The position numbers and the translations under genes are program-made. Of a stretch of 32,806 bases of DNA, positions 7,441-32,410 are shown one piece after another. The notes below the pieces were generated by a model. That model did not search any database, was not told the DNA's origin, and saw only the letters and a program-made list of their open reading frames with translations. The stretch comes from a bacterium (GTDB taxonomy: Bacteria > Hydrothermota > UBA3073 > JACQXS01 > JAGMCI01): contig JASEGA010000022.1 in the NCBI GenBank assembly GCA_030018315.1, positions 1 through 32,806 on the forward strand, written 5' to 3'. Position 1 is the stretch's first letter. Each line of letters opens with the position of its first letter.

Positions 7441-7755
7441 ATGGCAGTCAACCTGATAAAAAACATAAAGGAAGCTGAGCATGAGGCAGAAAATATTATT
7501 AAAAAGGCAGAAGAAGAGAAATTGAAAATTTTAAAGAAGGCACAAGAAGAGCAAAATAAAGAGTTACACGAGGTTGTCAGCAGACGCGAACTCGCATTAA
7601 AGAAAGCAATTGAGGAAGCCAAAAAAGAAGCTGCTAATGAGATAGAAAGTATTAAAAAAGAAATTGAAAGAAAAAAAGAACTAATTAAAAAATACTCTTC
7701 GCAAAAAAAAGAAGCTGCAATAGCTCTTATTATAACGAAGGCTTTAGAGCTATAA
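7441..7755 (+). CDS. V/A-type ATPase peripheral-stalk subunit, G/H-like coiled coil
   Basis: A 104-residue, almost wholly helical, Lys/Glu-rich protein with continuous heptad-like pattern (KEAEHEAENIIKKAEEEK...), typical of the small stalk subunit (AhaH/VatG, or subunit F in the Enterococcus nomenclature). It pairs with subunit E to form the peripheral stator. It is the first gene of operon 1, directly behind a consensus promoter, and its stop overlaps the ATG of subunit I by one base (TAATG). Coiled-coil sequence alone is weak evidence, so the call rests mainly on its place ahead of I, K and E. Confidence 0.8.
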   Translation: MAVNLIKNIKEAEHEAENIIKKAEEEKLKILKKAQEEQNKELHEVVSRRELALKKAIEEAKKEAANEIESIKKEIERKKELIKKYSSQKKEAAIALIITKALEL

Positions 7756-9731
7756 TGGGCATATCAAGGATGCAAAAGGTGCTGTTGGTTGTACATAGGG
7801 ATGAGAAAGATAAATTATTAGAGACACTGCAAGATAAGGCAATTATACACATAAAGGACATAAAGGAAAGTACACTTTCAAAAGACTACCCTGAGTTTAT
7901 TGTAGAGAAAGAAATCACTGATAAAGAAATTGAGGACCGCCTGCTTTTACTTGGAAGGGCAATAGATTATTTAAAGAAATTTAGTGCCAAAGGGTCACTT
8001 ATAGACGCATTTTTACCGCAGAAGCTAACAATTACTGAGCCAATTTACAAGGAGACTATCTCTTCTAATGAGCCTTTAAAGGTTGCGAAGAAAGTAGAAA
8101 CTATTGAGCAAAGGTTAGATGAAATTGATAGGGAGTATGGATTACTTATTTCCCAAAAAGAGGTTTTACTTCCCTGGCAGGCACTTGATGTTGAAGTAGA
8201 GGATATTAGCTCAACGAGATTAGCAATTTCAGTAGCTGGTGTAGTTAATAATCCACCTGATGATTGGAAAGATAGGGTTCAAAAGTTGCCAGTTGATATT
8301 GAAATTGTTAATGAAGAATTGGTAAGGGTATGGGTTCTGATTTCTTATCTGCAGGATGATGAAGTAGATGTTAAAAAGCTACTTGCTGAAATTGGGTTTG
8401 AGGCAATTTCTTTTAAAGGTTTTAAAGGAAAACCAGCGAATATCATTGCTGAACTTGAAGAAAAATTGGCACAGCTTGATAAGGAAAGAATAACACTACT
8501 TGAGGAAAGCGAATCTCTTGTGCAACAGTTAAATAAGATTCTTATCCTACACGATTATTATTCAAACTTACTTTCTAAGACTAAAATAGAAAATCTTACC
8601 CTCTCTACCCCAAGTGCTGTATGCATAGAAGGTTGGATTAGGGCAAAAGATTACAAAACATTGGCAGAGATTATAGCTCAGTTTGAGGCAGTTAGTGTAT
8701 CAAAGATTGCACCAGAACCTGGAGAAAATCTGCCGGTAGAATTAGAAAACAGGAGAGGAATAAGCGTCTTTGAGTCCATAACCGAGCTTTATAGCTCACC
8801 AAATGCAACTGAATTGGACCCGTCCCCATTTTTAGCACCATTCTTTGTATTATGTTTTGCATTGTGTCTTACAGATGCTTTTTATGGGCTTATACTTGCA
8901 GGCATTTGTTTATTGCTTATGAAAAGGGTTAAGGGTGATAAAAGGTTATTGTGGGTACTGTTTGCAAGTGGAATAACAACACTATTTACTGGCGCTATAA
9001 CTGGCGGCTGGTTTGGTGACTTAGGAGAAAGGTTTGGGCTTGAAGGCTTCGTGAGATTCAAGGATTGCCTACTCGTATTTAACCCAATGAAGACACCACT
9101 TACTTTTTTACTACTTTCTTTTGCAATTGGCTTTATTCAAGTATCTTTTGGATACTTTCTTGGGTTTATAAAAGCTCTACGAGAGGGTAAAATATTTGAA
9201 GGAATATCAACAAAACTGGCATGGAACATATTCTGGCTCGCTATCCTTATATTTGGATTCTCTAAAGTAGGGACAATTCATGAATTGCCACCACAAATTA
9301 TAAGTGGGAGTGTGGCTATAATTGCAGTTGGAATTATTCTATTTGGCTCAGGTGGACCGTCAAGGAACTTGCTTTTTAGAATAGCAAAAGGGGGACTCAA
9401 CCTTTACCAGGGTCTTAGTGGGACACTATCAGATATACTATCTTACTCAAGACTTATGGCACTCGGGCTTGTGACAGCGGGACTGGCGATGACTGTTAAT
9501 ATATTAGTTGAGTTAGTAAGTAAAATGCCTGTTATTGGGATTGTTCTTGCTCCTATTGCATTTGTTTTTGGGCACTTGTTATCAATTGGAATAAATGTGC
9601 TCGGTGCATTTGTGCATAGTTTAAGGCTACAGTATGCAGAGTTTTTTACTAAGTTTTTTGACGGTGGTGGTAAAGCTTTCAAACCGTTTAGAAAAGAAGC
9701 AAAGTATATATTAGTAGAAAAGGGAGATTAA
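7755..9731 (+). CDS. atpI: V/A-type ATPase subunit I (a subunit)
   Basis: Membrane subunit that forms the ion half-channels facing the K ring and anchors the stator. At 658 residues it is typical. The N-terminal half (about 1-340) is cytoplasmic, with coiled-coil arms. The C-terminal half has several membrane spans, starting at about residue 355 (LAPFFVLCFALCLTDAFYGL) and including FIQVSFGYFLGFI and ILSYSRLMALGLV, the helix holding the conserved arginine that meets the rotor carboxylate. The segment GAFVHSLRLQYAEFFTKFF near the C-terminus is the other family hallmark. It starts inside the stop of the stalk subunit and ends one base before atpK. Confidence 0.95.
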   Translation: MGISRMQKVLLVVHRDEKDKLLETLQDKAIIHIKDIKESTLSKDYPEFIVEKEITDKEIEDRLLLLGRAIDYLKKFSAKGSLIDAFLPQKLTITEPIYKETISSNEPLKVAKKVETIEQRLDEIDREYGLLISQKEVLLPWQALDVEVEDISSTRLAISVAGVVNNPPDDWKDRVQKLPVDIEIVNEELVRVWVLISYLQDDEVDVKKLLAEIGFEAISFKGFKGKPANIIAELEEKLAQLDKERITLLEESESLVQQLNKILILHDYYSNLLSKTKIENLTLSTPSAVCIEGWIRAKDYKTLAEIIAQFEAVSVSKIAPEPGENLPVELENRRGISVFESITELYSSPNATELDPSPFLAPFFVLCFALCLTDAFYGLILAGICLLLMKRVKGDKRLLWVLFASGITTLFTGAITGGWFGDLGERFGLEGFVRFKDCLLVFNPMKTPLTFLLLSFAIGFIQVSFGYFLGFIKALREGKIFEGISTKLAWNIFWLAILIFGFSKVGTIHELPPQIISGSVAIIAVGIILFGSGGPSRNLLFRIAKGGLNLYQGLSGTLSDILSYSRLMALGLVTAGLAMTVNILVELVSKMPVIGIVLAPIAFVFGHLLSIGINVLGAFVHSLRLQYAEFFTKFFDGGGKAFKPFRKEAKYILVEKGD

Positions 9732-10208
<477 letters not shown>

Positions 10209-10226
10209 TAATGCGTTAATTTTGGG

Positions 10227-10274
10227 AACCACATCCCGCCTATCAATGACGGGCAGGATTCATCTGCGGTTAAT
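10227..10274 (+). repeat. GC-rich hairpin plus 'catctgcggttaat' repeat before atpE
   Basis: Between atpK and atpE lies a GC-rich, partly self-complementary block (cccgcctatcaatgacggg, about 10232-10250) followed by catctgcggttaat at 10261-10274, identical to 6461-6474. It is an insertion of dispersed repeats into an otherwise tightly packed operon. It could lower or uncouple atpE translation; that effect is speculation. Confidence 0.55.
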
Positions 10275-10277
10275 CCA

Positions 10278-10847
10278 ATGGAAAAAGTAGCTAAAAAGAT
10301 TTTGGATGACGCCAAGAAAGAGTATGACAAAATAATTAAAGAAGCTAAAGATGAGGCTATTAAGCTTAAGAATAAGACTAAAGAAGAGCTTGATAGGTTA
10401 AACGCAGAGATAGAAAAACAAGTTAAGGAAGTGAGAGAAAAGGAAAAGAGGCGTCTTGTAGGGATGGCAAATTTGGCGTCAAGAAATGAATTACTGCATT
10501 TAAAAAGGGAGATTATAGATACCTTATTTAATGAGGCTCTCATTAGACTTAATGGTGGGAAAAAGGAGGAGTATCTTAAACTAATTAAGGTATTACTCGA
10601 ACGCACTGGAGGCAAGGATGGAGAAATTATAGTTGGAGAGAGTGATGATAAGATAGACTCTAAATTTATAGAGAATGTGAACAATAAGTTAGGAGCTAAA
10701 TTTATACTCGCCAATGAAAAGAGACATTTCAATGGTGGCTTCATATTACACCAGGGTAAGGTTGAGATTGATGCCTCATTTGAAGCCATCCTAAATACAA
10801 AACGCGCAAATATTGAATTAGAATTAGCTAAACTGCTGTTTCAATAG
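10278..10847 (+). CDS. atpE: V/A-type ATPase subunit E
   Basis: Stator subunit of 189 residues. The N-terminal half (1-95) is a long charged helix (KKILDDAKKEYDKIIKEA...) that would pair with the G/H-like subunit. The C-terminal domain (about 96-189) is globular and contains GGFILHQGKVEIDASFEAIL, the conserved NGG(F)-x-D-SFEA region of subunit E that caps the A/B hexamer. It lies 69 nt after atpK, beyond the repeat block, with no clear ribosome site before the ATG. It closes operon 1. Confidence 0.92.
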   Translation: MEKVAKKILDDAKKEYDKIIKEAKDEAIKLKNKTKEELDRLNAEIEKQVKEVREKEKRRLVGMANLASRNELLHLKREIIDTLFNEALIRLNGGKKEEYLKLIKVLLERTGGKDGEIIVGESDDKIDSKFIENVNNKLGAKFILANEKRHFNGGFILHQGKVEIDASFEAILNTKRANIELELAKLLFQ

Positions 10848-26266: not shown

Positions 26267-28012
26267 TTATCTTAAACCATCAATTTCACTATTTATCTCT
26301 TTTTCAATTTCTTCTATATCTTTTAGTTTGGTTTCTTGAGTATATTTTGCTTTTGCTATCCGTTCAAGGACTTTGAGAGTATGGATTTTGTCTGTAGTTA
26401 TACCCCTCTTTAACGCCTCATGTGATTTACCATAAAAATGGAGTATCAACTTAAGCATCATATACTGCTTAGTTATAGATGTGTATGTATCAAGTTCATG
26501 GAATGCATTTTGGTGCAAGAAGTCCTCCCTTATAGACCTCGCTACCTCAAGGAGTAACCTATCATCCTGTGACAACGACTCAAGCCCAACCAGTCTTACA
26601 ATATCCTGTAACTCTGCCTCTTTTTCAAGAATTCGCATTGCTTCCCTAATCAACTCTGGAAACTCTCTTGCCACTTTGTCTTCAACCCATTGCCTTGTTG
26701 AATCTGTGTATAACGAATACGAAGTAAGCCAATTTATAGCCGGGAAATGGCGTGCCTCTGCAAGCCTATCCTCAAGGCTCCAAAATACCTTTACTACCCT
26801 TAGCGTAGCTTGAACTACAGGGTCGGCGAGGTCGCCACCTGGTGGTGACACTGAGCCAATCACAGTTAGCATACCTTCACGATTATCAGAACCCAGACAT
26901 CTGACTCTACCAGCACGCTCATAGAATTCGGCTACCCTCGTTCCAAGATATGCAGGATAGCCCTCTTCACCAGGCATCTCTTCAAGCCTACTAGATATTT
27001 CACGCATAGCTTCTGCCCACCTTGAAGTTGAGTCTGCCTGCAAAGCTACAGAATAACCCATATCCCTAAAGTATTCACCAATTGCTACCCCTGTATAAAC
27101 AGAGGCTTCACGGGCAGCTACTGGCATATTTGAAGTGTTAGCTATAAGCACGGTGCGCTTCATCAATGGCTCGCCTGATTTTGGGTCCTTAAGTCTTGGG
27201 AATTCAATTAAGACATCGGTCATCTCGTTACCACGCTCACCACAGCCTACAAATAAGATTATGTCTGCATCTGCCCACTCTGAAATCTGGTGCTGTATGA
27301 CAGTTTTACCAGACCCAAATGGACCTGGGACACAGGCAGTGCCACCTTTAGCGACAGGAAAAAAAGTATCTATTACACGCTGTCCCGTATACATTGGGAC
27401 TTCGGGTGGCAACTTTTCAGTGTAAGGTCGTGGACGACGCACAGGCCAGCGTTGCATTAAAGTTATGTCCCTAACTCTATCTTTACACTTAATCTTACAA
27501 ACTGTGTCTTGAACCGTAAAATCACCTTCTTTAATCTCGATTATTTCACCCAAAATTCCGGGTGGCACCATTATACGATGGGTTACAAGGACTGTCTCTT
27601 GAACCTCACCTATAACATCTCCACCTGATACTTTTTCTCCTTTTTTAACACTTGGCTTAAAATACCACAACTTCTTCCTGTCAAGTCCGGGTAAGCTGAT
27701 ACCTCTTGTAATATTATTGCCTGTAAGCTCTCTTATTAGGGTGAGTGGACGCTGTATCCCATCATAAATTGACTCAATAAGCCCAGGCCCAAGCTCCACA
27801 GACAATGGCTCAAAAGTCAAGTAAACTGGCTCACCAGGTCCAATACCCGATGTCTCCTCATATACCTGGATTGATGCAAGGTCACCCTTTAACTCAATTA
27901 TCTCACCAATTAGACGCTTCTCCGACACCTTTACTACATCGTACATCTTGGTACCACTCATCCCACTCGCTACCACAAGTGGCCCCGATACCTTAACAAT
28001 CCTGCCTTCCAT
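26267..28012 (-). CDS. atpA: V/A-type ATPase catalytic subunit A
   Basis: Catalytic head subunit, 581 residues. Walker A GPFGSGKT is at 230-237, followed by the [15 protein letters not shown] block with the catalytic glutamate, and [20 protein letters not shown]. An insert of about 90 residues (about 110-200) before the P-loop is the 'non-homologous region' that separates A from F-type beta. No V-ATPase intein is present. The ATG begins one base after the stop of the hepT remnant (TAATATG), the same junction form as between atpA and atpB. Upstream subunits F and C are separated from it by a 3-kb cassette. Confidence 0.97.
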
Positions 28013-28013
28013 A

Positions 28014-28250
28014 TTATTCTCTTATTTCTACAAAAAAAGCAACACTATAAGAGGAGGGAATTGGTTCTTTCTTTTTGGCTAAAAGGTGGAATATTAAGTC
28101 GCTACTTGTGATAACCAATAGCTCCAAGATTCGCTCAACTGTGTAGTGGTTCTCCATAAATTCCTCATAGGAAATAACTTTAAACTTTTTCAAGTCCTCC
28201 AAATACTTAATTAAAAGCTCAAGCTTCCGTTTTACCACTTCGGGTGACAT
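28014..28250 (-). pseudogene. HepT-like HEPN toxin, C-terminally truncated
   Basis: The first 65 or so residues (MSPEVVKRKLELLIKYLEDL, then HYTVERILELLV...FHLLAKKKEPIP) match the N-terminal half of the DUF86/HepT HEPN RNases. The usual second half with the Rx4-6H catalytic motif is missing. After SSYS the sequence changes to VAFFVEIRE and stops one base before atpA. It is therefore a dead remnant unless the fragment has taken another role. It overlaps the MNT gene by 32 bases, the standard arrangement of MNT/HEPN pairs. Confidence 0.75.
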
Positions 28251-28670
28251 TTCTCAACTCCTTTATGTATGCTCTTATAAACTCTCCTCGTAATTTTCGT
28301 ATTTTTTCAGTGTCAAGATATTTCTTCCACGCTTTTAGTTTGTATTCCTCAAAAAGCCCATCTCTTTTCTCGGACGAAAACTTACCTTTGGAAAAGATTT
28401 CAAACTCAAGTAATGGGTCAGTATGTGGGGTTATTACAGTTAAGTCTACAGACCCTACAAATATACAATCAAGCTCACAAATAAGTCTTAATTTATTAAT
28501 TTCGGAGTCCTCTGGGACAACAGCAATATCAATATCGCTCATCTTGTAAGTTTTTGAGCCTACACAAGAGCCAAATAAAACAAGTAAAAAATTTTATTCT
28601 CCTTACAGAATTTTTTAATTTTATTAAGATAAAGATTATACTTCATTGCTTTCTCATGCCCAAAAACCAT
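28219..28670 (-). pseudogene. MNT-type minimal nucleotidyltransferase antitoxin, 1-nt frameshift
   Basis: The 107-residue open frame from 28542 starts at MSDIDIAVVPED, but the nucleotidyltransferase motif upstream is in the same frame as LFGSCVGSKTYKMSDIDIAV, with GS...D.D as expected. Further upstream, an ATG at 28670 gives VFGHEKAMKYNLYLNKIKKF. Adding one base in the A6 run (plus 28586-28591) joins the two frames into about 150 residues. MNT proteins AMPylate and silence their HEPN partners. The partner here is truncated, so the pair appears to be decaying. The frameshift could also be a sequencing undercall. Confidence 0.72.
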
Positions 28671-28805
28671 TTATTCAGTAATTTCAAAGTTACCAGTATC
28701 CCAAGCATGACACTTAGGACAGCCAACCGGCTCTCCTATTTCTGCATCACCAACTGTTTCTACGTCCTTTTCTTGAATATATCTGAAAAGTCTTGAAAGA
28801 TACGT
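28671..28805 (-). pseudogene. 3' remnant of a small CxxC protein
   Basis: A hand-read open frame of 44 residues overlaps the end of the restriction gene and stops directly before the mntA ATG (TAAATG). It ends EIGEPVGCPKCHAWDTGNFE..., with a CPKCH knuckle. No start codon is present in the open stretch, so it looks like the 3' end of a gene whose beginning was replaced by the restriction-modification cassette. Weak evidence, based on the motif and the abutting stop/start. Confidence 0.35.
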
Positions 28806-29494
28806 TCATAACGTTTTATTTTCTCGCTTCCCCATTCTTCTTTGAAGTCCTCACGCAATATATAAACACCATCAAGTTCATATTCTGATATTATTCTATC
28901 TCTACTCTTTCCATCAATTCTCCCTCTTTTTGTAAAATCTATGTCAAAATCTTCATCGTGATCAACAGTAGCTAAAAATATTTTAATGTTCTTTGTAACA
29001 TTAGATGAAAGCAATTTGAGTTTCCAATAACATGCTTGTGCAATCCTTTCTCTTAAACTGGTTTTACAAGAAATAATAGCTATTACTGTTGATTTCCATG
29101 TATTATCGGTATTAAAATCTACAATTACCAAATCAGCGTCGGGAAGCAACAGATATTTTTCATATTTTACAGCAAGTTTTCTGAAAATAACTTCGTTTTT
29201 CTTTTTCTTAATTTCATCTTTTGTTAAAACTGCTAAACCTTTCAAAGCTTCATCGTTTTCCTTAACCTCCCTAACATACGCCTTAATTATAGAGCCTACA
29301 ATTCTTTCAAATTTATTACCAATAAAAGAATGCCAAGATTGTTCAGCACTTCTTAAATGTGGATAATGCGTAGTTAAGATAGTCACATACTCATCTTTAA
29401 GTTTTTTAATTTCATTCCAGCCTTCTTTTGGATTTATTTCTCCTTTTTCTATCTGCTGAATTATTTTTAATACTTTTTGTTTTGGGTCACTCAT
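28760..29494 (-). CDS. Type II restriction endonuclease, BsaWI-like PD-(D/E)xK candidate
   Basis: A 244-residue protein from the ATG at 29494, which has GGGGAGG 8 nt upstream and overlaps the methyltransferase stop by 8 bases. The nuclease core appears as KFERIVG (acid at 63), LLPDADLVIVDF (119-121) and AIISCKTSLRERIAQACYWK (K144). The SCKTSLRERIAQ block is typical of a BsaWI-type enzyme group, though the SxK in place of the usual ExK should be checked. It lies directly after a DNA methyltransferase, the expected partner. Target sequence cannot be told from the sequence. An alternative start at 29515 lacks a good ribosome site. Confidence 0.75.
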   Translation of the reverse strand: MSDPKQKVLKIIQQIEKGEINPKEGWNEIKKLKDEYVTILTTHYPHLRSAEQSWHSFIGNKFERIVGSIIKAYVREVKENDEALKGLAVLTKDEIKKKKNEVIFRKLAVKYEKYLLLPDADLVIVDFNTDNTWKSTVIAIISCKTSLRERIAQACYWKLKLLSSNVTKNIKIFLATVDHDEDFDIDFTKRGRIDGKSRDRIISEYELDGVYILREDFKEEWGSEKIKRYERIFQDFSDIFKKRT

Positions 29495-30668
29495 AAATTT
29501 TTCCTCCCCTCTCATAATGTGTCCACTTAATTTCTCTTTTAAAAGATTTTTTTAATAAGTCTGGATGTGGCTTTCGCATAATTAAAAGATATTTAAATCC
29601 GCGTAGATAAAAATTAAAGCGGATTGCCCTATTATACCATATACCTGTATTAGAGGTTTGTCCCCTACGAGTAACACAAATAATATCCACTGGTTCAAAA
29701 TATTTGCACAATTGTTCATAAATCTTAAAACCTACAGGTGTAAACTTTTTCTTAACCCATTGGTCACCAATAAGCCATCCTAATACTTTTCCATATTTCA
29801 ATACTCGGTAACATTCACACATGACTTTCTCAAGTTCCTCATAAAATTTCTCTGTTTCTGAAGAAATTTTTCCGATATCATCAGGGTGCTCATTATATCT
29901 AACATTGTCTCCATAAGGAGAATCAATGAAGACCATATCTACACTATTATTTCCCAATGGAATTTTCCTTGCATCATTTTGTACGACATCAGGTCTTGTT
30001 GGTGCTATATCGTAAGCAATACATCTTCGCCCTTCTTCTTTACAAACATCTAAAGTGGTTCCACTCCCTGCCATTGGATCCAATACTAAATCGCCAGGTT
30101 CTGTATACCTCTTAATTAAGTTATAAATGATAAATGCAGGAGTTACCCCAGGATATTTATTGTTTCCTTTGGGAATCTTCCCGTAACTTTGTTTCGGGTA
30201 ATCCCAAAGAGTAGTTGCCTCTATCTTTGGCTTTTCATCTATAGTTGCTGGATATTTTGGAGGAAGTTTTATATTATCCAATTCAAGTTTTGGATTTTCA
30301 AGAACTTTTATGAGAAGGTCGGTTCTAAATTCGTCAAGTGGATATTTCCAATCTATATTCAACTTTGCGAGAACTTTTTTTACACTTTTTAAACTTCTAA
30401 CTTCATTATTATTTTTTTCAACTCTTACTTGATAAGGATATCGTCCATTCCATGCGTTTGGAACTAAATCTTTTCCACCGTCAGATGCGGCCACAAATGG
30501 CCCATATAAAATATCCGAATCCATATTTAGGAGGAATAGTGTATCTCCCTTTTTTATACCAAAAACTTTTTCGGCATAGATTTTATTCGTTGAAAATAAC
30601 ATACGGTCAAGGCACTCCCTTTCAGTTCTTTCTGTGCATACGAAAATGTAACTATTTCCTTTAGCCAT
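29487..30668 (-). CDS. DNA methyltransferase with N-terminal DCD/EVE-like domain
   Basis: A 393-residue protein. Residues about 6-86 (YIFVCTERTERECL...KVFGIKKGDTLFLLNMDSDILYG...SDGGKDLVPNAWNGRYPYQVRV) have the signature of a DCD (development and cell death) domain, a PUA-like fold related to EVE/YTH readers of modified bases. Residues about 150-393 are an amino-methyltransferase: a motif X-like GVTPAFIIYNLI, motif I VLDPMAGSGTT (196-206) and motif IV DSPYG (249-253), in the X-I-IV order. The DSPYG suggests N6-adenine or N4-cytosine methylation. An ATG at 30668 has AGGGGAG 5 nt upstream; the GTG at 30674 does not. It pairs with the downstream nuclease. Confidence 0.85.
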   Translation of the reverse strand: MAKGNSYIFVCTERTERECLDRMLFSTNKIYAEKVFGIKKGDTLFLLNMDSDILYGPFVAASDGGKDLVPNAWNGRYPYQVRVEKNNNEVRSLKSVKKVLAKLNIDWKYPLDEFRTDLLIKVLENPKLELDNIKLPPKYPATIDEKPKIEATTLWDYPKQSYGKIPKGNNKYPGVTPAFIIYNLIKRYTEPGDLVLDPMAGSGTTLDVCKEEGRRCIAYDIAPTRPDVVQNDARKIPLGNNSVDMVFIDSPYGDNVRYNEHPDDIGKISSETEKFYEELEKVMCECYRVLKYGKVLGWLIGDQWVKKKFTPVGFKIYEQLCKYFEPVDIICVTRRGQTSNTGIWYNRAIRFNFYLRGFKYLLIMRKPHPDLLKKSFKREIKWTHYERGGKIYE

Positions 30669-30680
30669 TCTCACTCCCCT

Positions 30681-30902
30681 CTACGAAATCTTTTCCCCCA
30701 TAATTTGATTTACACATGACCTGCATATAGTTCTCAAGTTTGTCCAATTTTCATTTTTTGGAATTTTCCAATGTCCATTTTCGTCGTGTCCATAACTATT
30801 GTAATGTTTGAAGCACTCTTCACAAAGAATATGCTCCTCAGTGCGATGATAAACGCTTTGACCATCCAGCACGTGGACACAAACTATTATCAAACTATTC
30901 AT
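30681..30902 (-). CDS. Small four-cysteine (zinc-ribbon-like) protein
   Basis: A 73-residue protein with CEEC at about 27-30 and CRSC at about 60-63, a spacing that fits one zinc site. Its core (EEHILCEECFKHY...NENWTNLRTICRSCV) resembles a treble-clef or rubredoxin-like knuckle. The ATG overlaps the stop of the HTH gene (ATGA), and GGAAGGGG lies 4 nt upstream. Lying between the regulator and the methyltransferase, it may be a DNA-binding or assembly accessory of the R-M cassette. I do not recognise the family. Confidence 0.6.
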   Translation of the reverse strand: MNSLIIVCVHVLDGQSVYHRTEEHILCEECFKHYNSYGHDENGHWKIPKNENWTNLRTICRSCVNQIMGEKIS

Positions 30903-31078
30903 GAATCCCCTTCCTTTTCCCCTTCTTGACTGAATCGTCTTTGCCCTCCTTTAGTTTTGGTAGATGAAAGCGAACCAATTTTCTCCATCCGATAGATAAT
31001 AGACGGACTTACTCCAAGATAGTTAGCCGCCTCTTTTGTTGTATACACGGCTTTATTTTCTCTCTTTTTGTTTTTCAT
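30899..31078 (-). CDS. HTH_17/MerR-like DNA-binding regulator of the R-M cassette
   Basis: A 59-residue protein read by hand. The core VYTTKEAANYLGVSPSIIYR then GSL...GGQRRFSQE is the helix-turn-helix-wing of HTH_17/excisionase-like proteins (residues about 11-49). The ATG (31078-31076) shares ATGA with the atpF stop, and the stop shares ATGA with the next gene. It is the first gene of the R-M cassette and would be a fitting controller of the methyltransferase/nuclease pair. It has no clear ribosome site apart from coupling with atpF. Confidence 0.75.
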   Translation of the reverse strand: MKNKKRENKAVYTTKEAANYLGVSPSIIYRMEKIGSLSSTKTKGGQRRFSQEGEKEGDS

Positions 31079-31390: not shown

Positions 31391-32410
31391 TTAATAAGCC
31401 TCAGGTAATCTCTCTCTTATCACTGTATCTGGAATAGCATTAATTTTACCTGTAAATATCATCCTTAGTATTTTAAATTCGTTTTCCTTACCATAAAAGT
31501 AGGCAAGAACAGGCTCTACTCCAAAAGCTAAATACTTTGTAGCTCTACAAAATGAAATGAAGTGGTCGTCACAAAGCTTCTCAAGTCGTAAGAATGAAGC
31601 CTTTGAGATTAAAGATTCTACACCTTCAGTAAGGATTCTTGAATACGGGGTATTCTTAAAATAATGAGGTATAGCCTCTATAGGCTCATCAAATGAATCC
31701 AAAAACCGTGCCTGTTCAAGCCAGCCACCATCAATGAATGCTTTCGTAAAGAAGCCGCGTTCCTCTTTAAGCCATTTTATTCTTAGTAATATCTTTATGT
31801 TGACGAGGTCAATTTCTATTTTAATCAGTGTATTAAGAAAAATATTCCCTACCACTCCTATAAGAAATGAATAGTATGCTTTATCTAATACTATATCTAT
31901 GAATCTTGGGTCCTTAGTCAAGTAATAATTAGATATCGCTTCCTCTATCGCTGACTGAAGACCGAACCCAAGTTTATCGTATCTCTCATTTTGGAACACT
32001 GACTTCAGTTCATGTGTTGAGATATTTCCAAAATTAGATAAAAGTGCATCTACTTCTTTCTCTCCAATCATACCTTTAAGCAGTGTTTTGACATTGTGAT
32101 AGTCATATTTTAATTTTAGGATCTCCACAAAATTAGAATCAAGAATAAGTTTAGCCATCAGGCTATAAAGCTCTATTCTTGCATTTCTTACAATGCTCTC
32201 GTAATCCTTCGCAGAATCCTGTGGAAAATTAAGCCACTGGCTATAACCTGTGTCCTGGAGAGCCCTTAAAAGCTTATTCCCATCCTTAGCTTCAAAAAGA
32301 CGCGCAACTTTGTGAGTAGATAGGAGACGCGTCTCAAGAGCCCTTATCCTGGCGACAGCATAAGCATATCTTGTATCTTTGGATTCAATATGAGGATACC
32401 TAATTAACAT
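31391..32410 (-). CDS. atpC: V/A-type ATPase subunit C
   Basis: Funnel-shaped subunit linking rotor shaft to the K ring, 339 residues from the ATG at 32410. Recognisable blocks are YAYAVARIRALETRLLS near the N-terminus, DYHNVKTLLKGMI and EIDLVNIKILLRIK, the three-fold repeated helical core, and a C-terminal EPVLAYFYGKENEFKILRMI. The longer frame with a GTG at 32425 overlaps the -10 box, so the ATG at 32410 is preferred. It heads operon 2 and is preceded by a consensus promoter. Confidence 0.95.
   Translation of the reverse strand: MLIRYPHIESKDTRYAYAVARIRALETRLLSTHKVARLFEAKDGNKLLRALQDTGYSQWLNFPQDSAKDYESIVRNARIELYSLMAKLILDSNFVEILKLKYDYHNVKTLLKGMIGEKEVDALLSNFGNISTHELKSVFQNERYDKLGFGLQSAIEEAISNYYLTKDPRFIDIVLDKAYYSFLIGVVGNIFLNTLIKIEIDLVNIKILLRIKWLKEERGFFTKAFIDGGWLEQARFLDSFDEPIEAIPHYFKNTPYSRILTEGVESLISKASFLRLEKLCDDHFISFCRATKYLAFGVEPVLAYFYGKENEFKILRMIFTGKINAIPDTVIRERLPEAY

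Follow-up and report, generated by a model that had tools for sequence, protein, structure and literature searches.

A likely permissive slot between atpF and atpA of a bacterial V-ATPase operon, holding a putative type II restriction-modification system and a decayed toxin-antitoxin pair

Contig JASEGA010000022.1 of the Hydrothermota assembly GCA_030018315.1 carries V-type ATPase (V-ATPase) genes in the order C-F-A-B-D, into which other genes are inserted between atpF and atpA. The window analysed here is the whole contig (C22, 32,806 bp), one of 74 contigs of a 1.95 Mb metagenome-assembled genome (MAG; hereafter G000). On its minus strand the order is atpC, atpF, a helix-turn-helix (HTH) gene, a four-cysteine gene (Cys4), a DNA methyltransferase (MT), a restriction endonuclease (RE), an MntA relic, a HepT relic, atpA, atpB, and atpD. 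The best explanation as a whole, which we consider likely, is that the gap between atpF and atpA (the F-A gap) is a permissive slot in which co-oriented modules are gained and lost, type II restriction-modification (RM) and toxin-antitoxin (TA) modules included. This explanation draws on gene content and order, the junctions, the comparison with relatives, the decay of the TA pair, and the loss of a Shine-Dalgarno sequence, all of which are observed; the order in which the HTH-Cys4 and MT-RE pairs were acquired is something that we infer.

A preliminary description of this DNA had reported the interruption, on one strand, together with an ATGA shared by atpF and the first inserted gene and a single base before atpA, and all of this, coordinates included, is borne out. 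It had also treated the insert as one RM cassette. The RM genes are indeed embedded in the operon, but a single cassette is too simple, as there are at least two layers. The insert appears to be composed of an older MntA-HepT pair shared with a relative (G002), a horizontally acquired MT-RE pair, and an HTH-Cys4 pair that a further relative (G004) has away from atp genes.

The F-A gap in relatives

Five genomes of the order have atpF and atpA on one contig: G000, G001, G002, G007, and G008. Outside the order, among the genomes in which both genes are readable, the F-A spacing is 5–29 nt in nearly all; the exceptions are one overlap, a divergent second ATPase (564 nt), and the MAG UBA5214 (218 nt). 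The contiguity of atpF and atpA, which the preliminary description had named as the point to look for in relatives, is thus found in the outgroups. Within the order, the gap measures 1079 nt in G001, 3637 nt in G002, 3577 nt in G007, 5310 nt in G008, and 3062 nt in G000, and its occupant genes are co-oriented. The gap holds one protein of 161 aa in G001, which belongs to the same family as G000; an FAD oxidoreductase, an intact MntA-HepT pair, and an FG-GAP protein in G002; an FAD oxidoreductase, a fusion of a RadC N-terminus with an N6/N4 methyltransferase, and a match to PADLOC REase_II (3.8e-81) in G007; and an FAD oxidoreductase with genes that have no family matches in G008. As far as sampling goes, an open F-A junction characterizes the order, with occupants that are subject to turnover. 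The RM of G007 (L037:6681-8961) seems to be inserted into radC.

Other atp junctions are also affected. The C-F gap is filled too in G007 and G008, with HicA/HicB among the contents, and G002, G007, and G008 each have their atpA, atpB, and atpD distributed over separate contigs. In G008 (L134:5335-6016), the only HepT-like gene of the genome, with its MNT partner, shares an ATGA overlap with the atpB start. An MNT-HEPN pair lies 140 nt downstream of atpD in G067 (L140:5190-5839), and a relic of the same is present in G070 (L141). By a rough Poisson estimate, made post hoc, three independent cases of HepT near core atp genes compare with 0.77 expected (p ~0.04). That two unrelated RMs occur among five genomes, and that HepT adjoins atp genes in three lineages (G002/G000 and G008 within the order, G067/G070 outside it), is suggestive of a preference of RM and TA modules for the slot, though not proof of it. 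Neither atpF nor atpD was detected in G003, G005, and G006, of the same order. The alpha/beta pairs of G003 and G006 are spaced like those of F-type ATPases, and a V-to-F replacement within the order is possible.

The methyltransferase-endonuclease module

The MT gene (30674-29487, minus strand) matches PF01555 (N6_N4_Mtase, 1.7e-26). Its motif order is permuted, DPMAGSGTT preceding DSPYG, and both motifs are kept. At its N-terminus there is a DCD (development and cell death) domain (PF10539, 8.5e-19), which stands here on a bacterial DNA methyltransferase and is best known from plants. The gene that follows (29494-28760, minus strand; longest frame from 29515) encodes a BsaWI-family RE, scoring 6.5e-25 against PF18643 (RE_BsaWI), at 87.7 bits against a curated cut-off of 26.2. 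Its best start is the ATG at 29494, with a Shine-Dalgarno energy of -11.2 kcal/mol. Enzymes of the CCGG family are characterized by a PDX21-53K active site preceded by an E, and by R-(D/E)R as the residues for site recognition; BsaWI itself has the site W/CCGGW and D175 as the second acidic residue after K (PMC4652773). In an alignment of eight homologues of the RE, E70, P125-D126-X24-K151, and R155-E156-R157 are invariant (numbering from the 29515 start); an acidic residue is absent at K+10, and E156 is at K+5. Structure prediction from two sequences gave a low-confidence model (pLDDT 61) for which Foldseek returned no significant match, a sequence search of the PDB with the RE gave nothing meaningful, and no copy of the RE was found in plasmids. 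The retained RE residues and MT motifs make a working type II RM likely, and family membership makes a CCGG-type recognition site likely as well.

Past the RE lies a zinc-ribbon-like coding tail without a start codon (28787-28671, minus strand; IGEPVGCPKCHAWDTGNFEITE), of which a 75% identical peptide exists in UBA5214. There (L060:8758) it stands directly past the RE stop, in another frame relative to the RE. The tail appears to mark the 3' edge of the MT-RE module at 28671. A programmed frameshift that would join the RE to this tail was considered and rejected, because the frame of the tail differs between G000 and UBA5214.

UBA5214, a MAG filed as Elusimicrobia, has a pair that is 77% (RE) and 69% (MT) identical to the one described here, not near atp genes and without HTH and Cys4. 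Its AtpA is only 68% identical to that of G000. AtpA normally evolves far slower than a restriction enzyme. The higher identity of the RE than of AtpA thus points to horizontal transfer, by which the MT-RE pair appears to have been acquired. Homologues of the RE occur in 16 other genomes of the phylum at 26–42% identity, most beside a methylase, and none of these loci that were examined has an atp gene.

Word counts were made in 432,806 bases of G000 (L111-L130 plus the window). In this sample GATC is strongly depleted (132 seen against 1229 expected, 0.11), as is CTAG (0.14), and GGCC and TCGA stand at 0.41 and 0.42.

The MntA-HepT relic

Intact MntA-HepT systems are marked by the motifs GSX10DXD and RX4HXY (PMC7641770). 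Here both genes, on the minus strand, are damaged. The MntA relic (~28646-28219) gives a partial match to MntA_antitoxin (7.5e-10). One base is missing at a run of six T (28591-28586), as found by three-frame translation and by alignment with the MntA of G002, and this parts the start codon from GSX10DXD; the motif is still present behind the frameshift, in a frame without a start codon, and would not be part of the translated protein. The HepT relic (28250-28014) matches positions 1-67 of 120 of the HepT profile. Its frame is still open, and the C-terminal part with RX4HXY, which reads RNILVHGY in the intact G002 copy, is gone. A programmed -1 frameshift at the T run of mntA is possible in principle; HepT is truncated regardless.

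The HepT sequences of G000 and G002 are 77–80% identical, and the next best among 147 genomes of the phylum is 33%. Both copies of the pair lie inside the F-A gap, and between the two genomes dS is ~1.15, against 1.28 for atpF, with a dN/dS of 0.10–0.19. The similar dS, the low dN/dS, and the same location point to shared ancestry and recent decay. In the simplest reading, the pair was inherited from a common ancestor and has recently died in G000.

Junctions, transcription, and the translation of atpA

The insert is tightly joined to atpF (31389-31075, minus strand; PF01990, 2.6e-19) on one side and to atpA (28012-26267, minus strand; TIGR01043, 5e-281) on the other. The atpF stop and the HTH start share ATGA (-4 nt), as do HTH and Cys4; the RE start falls inside the 3' end of the MT gene, and the MntA and HepT relics overlap. 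The stop of the HepT relic is followed by one T and then by the atpA ATG at 28012 (+1 nt), a TAA-T-ATG geometry that recurs between atpA and atpB. Among co-directional neighbours in G000 (20 x 20 kb = 400 kb), an overlap of exactly 4 nt accounts for 10.5%, and a spacing of -8 to +2 nt for 23% against 7% in a shifted control. Published surveys put overlapping gene pairs at ~15% in most prokaryotes (PMC6728339). The tight junctions are therefore ordinary; they tell us that the insert fits the operon, not that the arrangement is special.

A sigma-70 type promoter with 12/12 consensus positions (TTGACA-18-TATAAT; 32446-32417, minus strand) precedes atpC. The atpC gene (32425-31391, minus strand; PF01992, 1.5e-59) more likely starts at 32410, as its homologues begin MLITYP. 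The -10 element ends ~7 nt ahead of that ATG, which makes it probable that the atpC messenger is leaderless, in a bacterium. No terminator-like site was found between atpF and atpA on the strand of the insert. It is plausible that the inserted genes and the ATPase genes are co-transcribed from the atpC promoter, and internal promoters are possible. A 10/12 promoter-like match at 31109-31082 was rejected as a promoter of the HTH gene: it ends 3 nt ahead of the HTH start codon, and its -10 element is too near the ATG.

The Shine-Dalgarno energy of atpA is -2.9 kcal/mol, a background level, against -10.9 to -12.6 kcal/mol in the four relatives. The deletion that truncated HepT extends up to one base ahead of the ATG and took the strong site of atpA with it. 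The relic itself is preceded by a good Shine-Dalgarno sequence (-8.2 kcal/mol). For termination-reinitiation coupling, genes must overlap or lie very close together (PMC10666635), and the distances of -4 nt (atpF-HTH) and +1 nt (HepT-atpA) lie within that range. The loss at atpA, the Shine-Dalgarno sequence of the relic, and the TAA-T-ATG junction together suggest reinitiation as the likeliest route to AtpA, which is probably made after translation of the HepT relic.

The HTH-Cys4 pair and the remaining genes

The HTH gene (31078-30899, minus strand) encodes a MerR/excisionase-like protein of 59 aa by profile (HTH_17, TIGR01764), and has no Shine-Dalgarno sequence of its own (-1.7 kcal/mol). 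Cys4 (30902-30681, minus strand; 73 aa) has a CxxC...CxxC pattern and only weak HNH/RING-like matches; its structure prediction, from one sequence, is of low confidence and has no usable fold match. The closest homologues of both within the phylum are in the same order. The pair occurs in G004, of that order, away from atp genes and at 74% (HTH) and 71% (Cys4) identity, on a contig that stops just behind it. In G058 a Cys4 homologue immediately precedes a truncated BsaWI-type N-terminus, and in G047 another adjoins an MNT-HEPN pair, which suggests that Cys4 accompanies defence genes. Cys4 was not found in phages, plasmids, or viral contigs.

Downstream of atpA, atpB (26265-24880, minus strand) starts 1 nt past the atpA stop, and atpD (24816-24196, minus strand) matches PF01813 (6.5e-48). 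The V-ATPase genes are divided into two clusters within the window. The second, on the plus strand (7441-10847) and 13 kb away from the atpC-D cluster, consists of a gene for a 104-aa helical protein and the I, K, and E genes, and is free of inserts. The V-type A/B set of the window is the only one found in G000. Both contig ends (1-402 and 32509-32805) carry pieces that, judged by eye, resemble insertion sequence (IS) transposases and would account for the contig breaks.

How the slot may have been filled

In the reading that we favour, the V-ATPase operon would have been opened between atpF and atpA in this bacterial order, and the slot would since have gained and lost co-oriented modules, type II RM and TA among them. 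The MntA-HepT pair that G000 inherited would have been killed by the frameshift and by loss of the RNase end of HepT. A complete BsaWI-family type II RM, composed of a DCD-methyltransferase and a PD-(D/E)XK endonuclease, would have been acquired horizontally and now has HTH-Cys4 in front of it. It would act as an ordinary type II system, in which the methylase shields host DNA and the endonuclease cuts unmodified CCGG-type sites. Its messenger would be the atpC-F-...-A-B-D transcript, leading to constitutive production alongside the ATPase, and ribosomes terminating on the hepT relic would reinitiate at atpA.

Several points weigh against parts of this reading. The proposed recognition site finds no support in the word counts: CCGG stands at 1.11 observed over expected, and WCCGGW was seen 147 times against ~159 expected, so there is no depletion. 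That two of five genomes have an RM in the slot could be coincidence. Strong Shine-Dalgarno sequences precede only ~40% of starts in G000, so that atpA need not depend on hepT; atpB and atpD also lack strong ones, and the loss at atpA need not mean such a dependence. Co-transcription is a prediction from the DNA, and sigma-70-like matches in the region number 38 against 25.9 after shuffling, which leaves room for promoters that belong to the RM itself. Finally, the arrangement is seen in one strain, on a MAG contig, where misassembly at the atpF-HTH junction is possible.

The preliminary description had proposed that an RM tied to an essential transcript could not readily be lost, an addiction-like arrangement. 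The single strand, the ATGA at one end and 1 nt at the other, and the lack of a terminator-like site are in keeping with this, as is the sole V-type A/B set, and since atpA has no Shine-Dalgarno sequence of its own, removal of the 3' end of the insert would now be costly. However, none of the four relatives has the RM of G000 in the slot, gap contents differ in every relative, and the atpA, atpB, and atpD genes of three are spread over three contigs. The part bound to atpA is a dead hepT frame and not the RM, and after an in-frame deletion from HTH to RE the junctions would still work; in several members of the order atpF or atpD was not detected. Difficulty of loss is thus unsupported, and addiction by linkage, rejected as the principal explanation in view of the turnover, is very unlikely. 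A stronger form of the slot reading holds that atpF-atpA and other atp junctions are genuinely and repeatedly used as docking sites by defence and TA genes, kept since the V-ATPase promoter suits them, with the dead toxin exapted as a translational relay for AtpA; this is distinctly unlikely.

Neutral dissolution of the operon, in which rearrangement leaves chance neighbours and RM and TA have no special relation to the site, is doubtful, while still carrying appreciable weight. The scattering of atpA, atpB, and atpD, the many non-defence genes in the slot, and the commonness of short overlaps genome-wide fit it well. Against it, the order and strand of F and A and their closeness are conserved in five genomes, one slot has received two unrelated RMs, G002 and G008 have their only HepT-like genes beside atpA and atpB, HicA/HicB occupies the C-F gap of G007 and G008, and HepT exceeds its post hoc expectation near core genes. 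It could also be that the RM is autonomous, with its own promoter and regulation by a controller-like HTH together with Cys4, and merely sits in the operon. That HTH and Cys4 precede MT-RE and recur as a pair in G004, the position of Cys4 in G058, and the 10/12 match before the HTH gene would agree with this, but UBA5214 has MT-RE without the pair, which is therefore dispensable, the match lies too close to the HTH start codon, and such matches abound in this AT-rich sequence. We consider this explanation unlikely. An assembly artefact joining contigs of different organisms is brought to mind by the fragmented MAG and the IS-like contig ends. It is extremely unlikely, as the MntA-HepT orthologues in the F-A gap of G002 support the HepT-atpA side, every relative has an open gap, the coding overlaps are preserved at each junction, and the closest phylum homologues of HTH and Cys4 are within the same order.

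Comparison with known systems

In the usual view, core operons do not admit foreign genes. The operon of a central ion pump here has a junction that is open in every readable genome of the order and is refilled, with two non-homologous RMs among the occupants, while order and strand are kept. If confirmed, this would offer a tractable example of defence genes entering housekeeping transcripts while leaving them whole, and of a dead toxin gene that may now take part in translating an ATPase subunit. Each of the elements, from the RM and TA families to mosaic operons and translational coupling, is already known, and no paper on an RM inside a V-ATPase operon was found in the literature searched. 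The new points are where the insert lies, that one V-ATPase junction has been used again by non-homologous RMs, and that a toxin relic may serve as a translation relay for atpA.

Mosaic operons are operons with horizontally acquired genes, and the present case resembles them in that an old operon has taken in foreign genes on its own strand; it differs in that one junction is reused by different modules, two non-homologous RM systems among them, within one order. With the BsaWI-family type IIP RM systems (PF18643, PMC4652773) the module shares the PD-X24-K core, the R-E-R triplet, the N-terminal helical part, and the adjacent methyltransferase, and it differs in the DCD domain of the methylase, the location inside a V-ATPase operon, and the lack of CCGG depletion. 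MntA-HepT, a HEPN/MNT or type VII toxin-antitoxin (PMC7641770), is matched in gene order, family assignment, the GSX10DXD sequence, and the intact G002 orthologue, whereas the copy here is broken by the frameshift before GSX10DXD and by the absence of RX4HXY from HepT, and may act as a leader of atpA. As in known termination-reinitiation coupling (PMC6728339, PMC10666635), the -4 nt and +1 nt junctions are in coupling range; unlike it, atpA would be coupled to a dead toxin gene ahead of it and not to an ATPase subunit.

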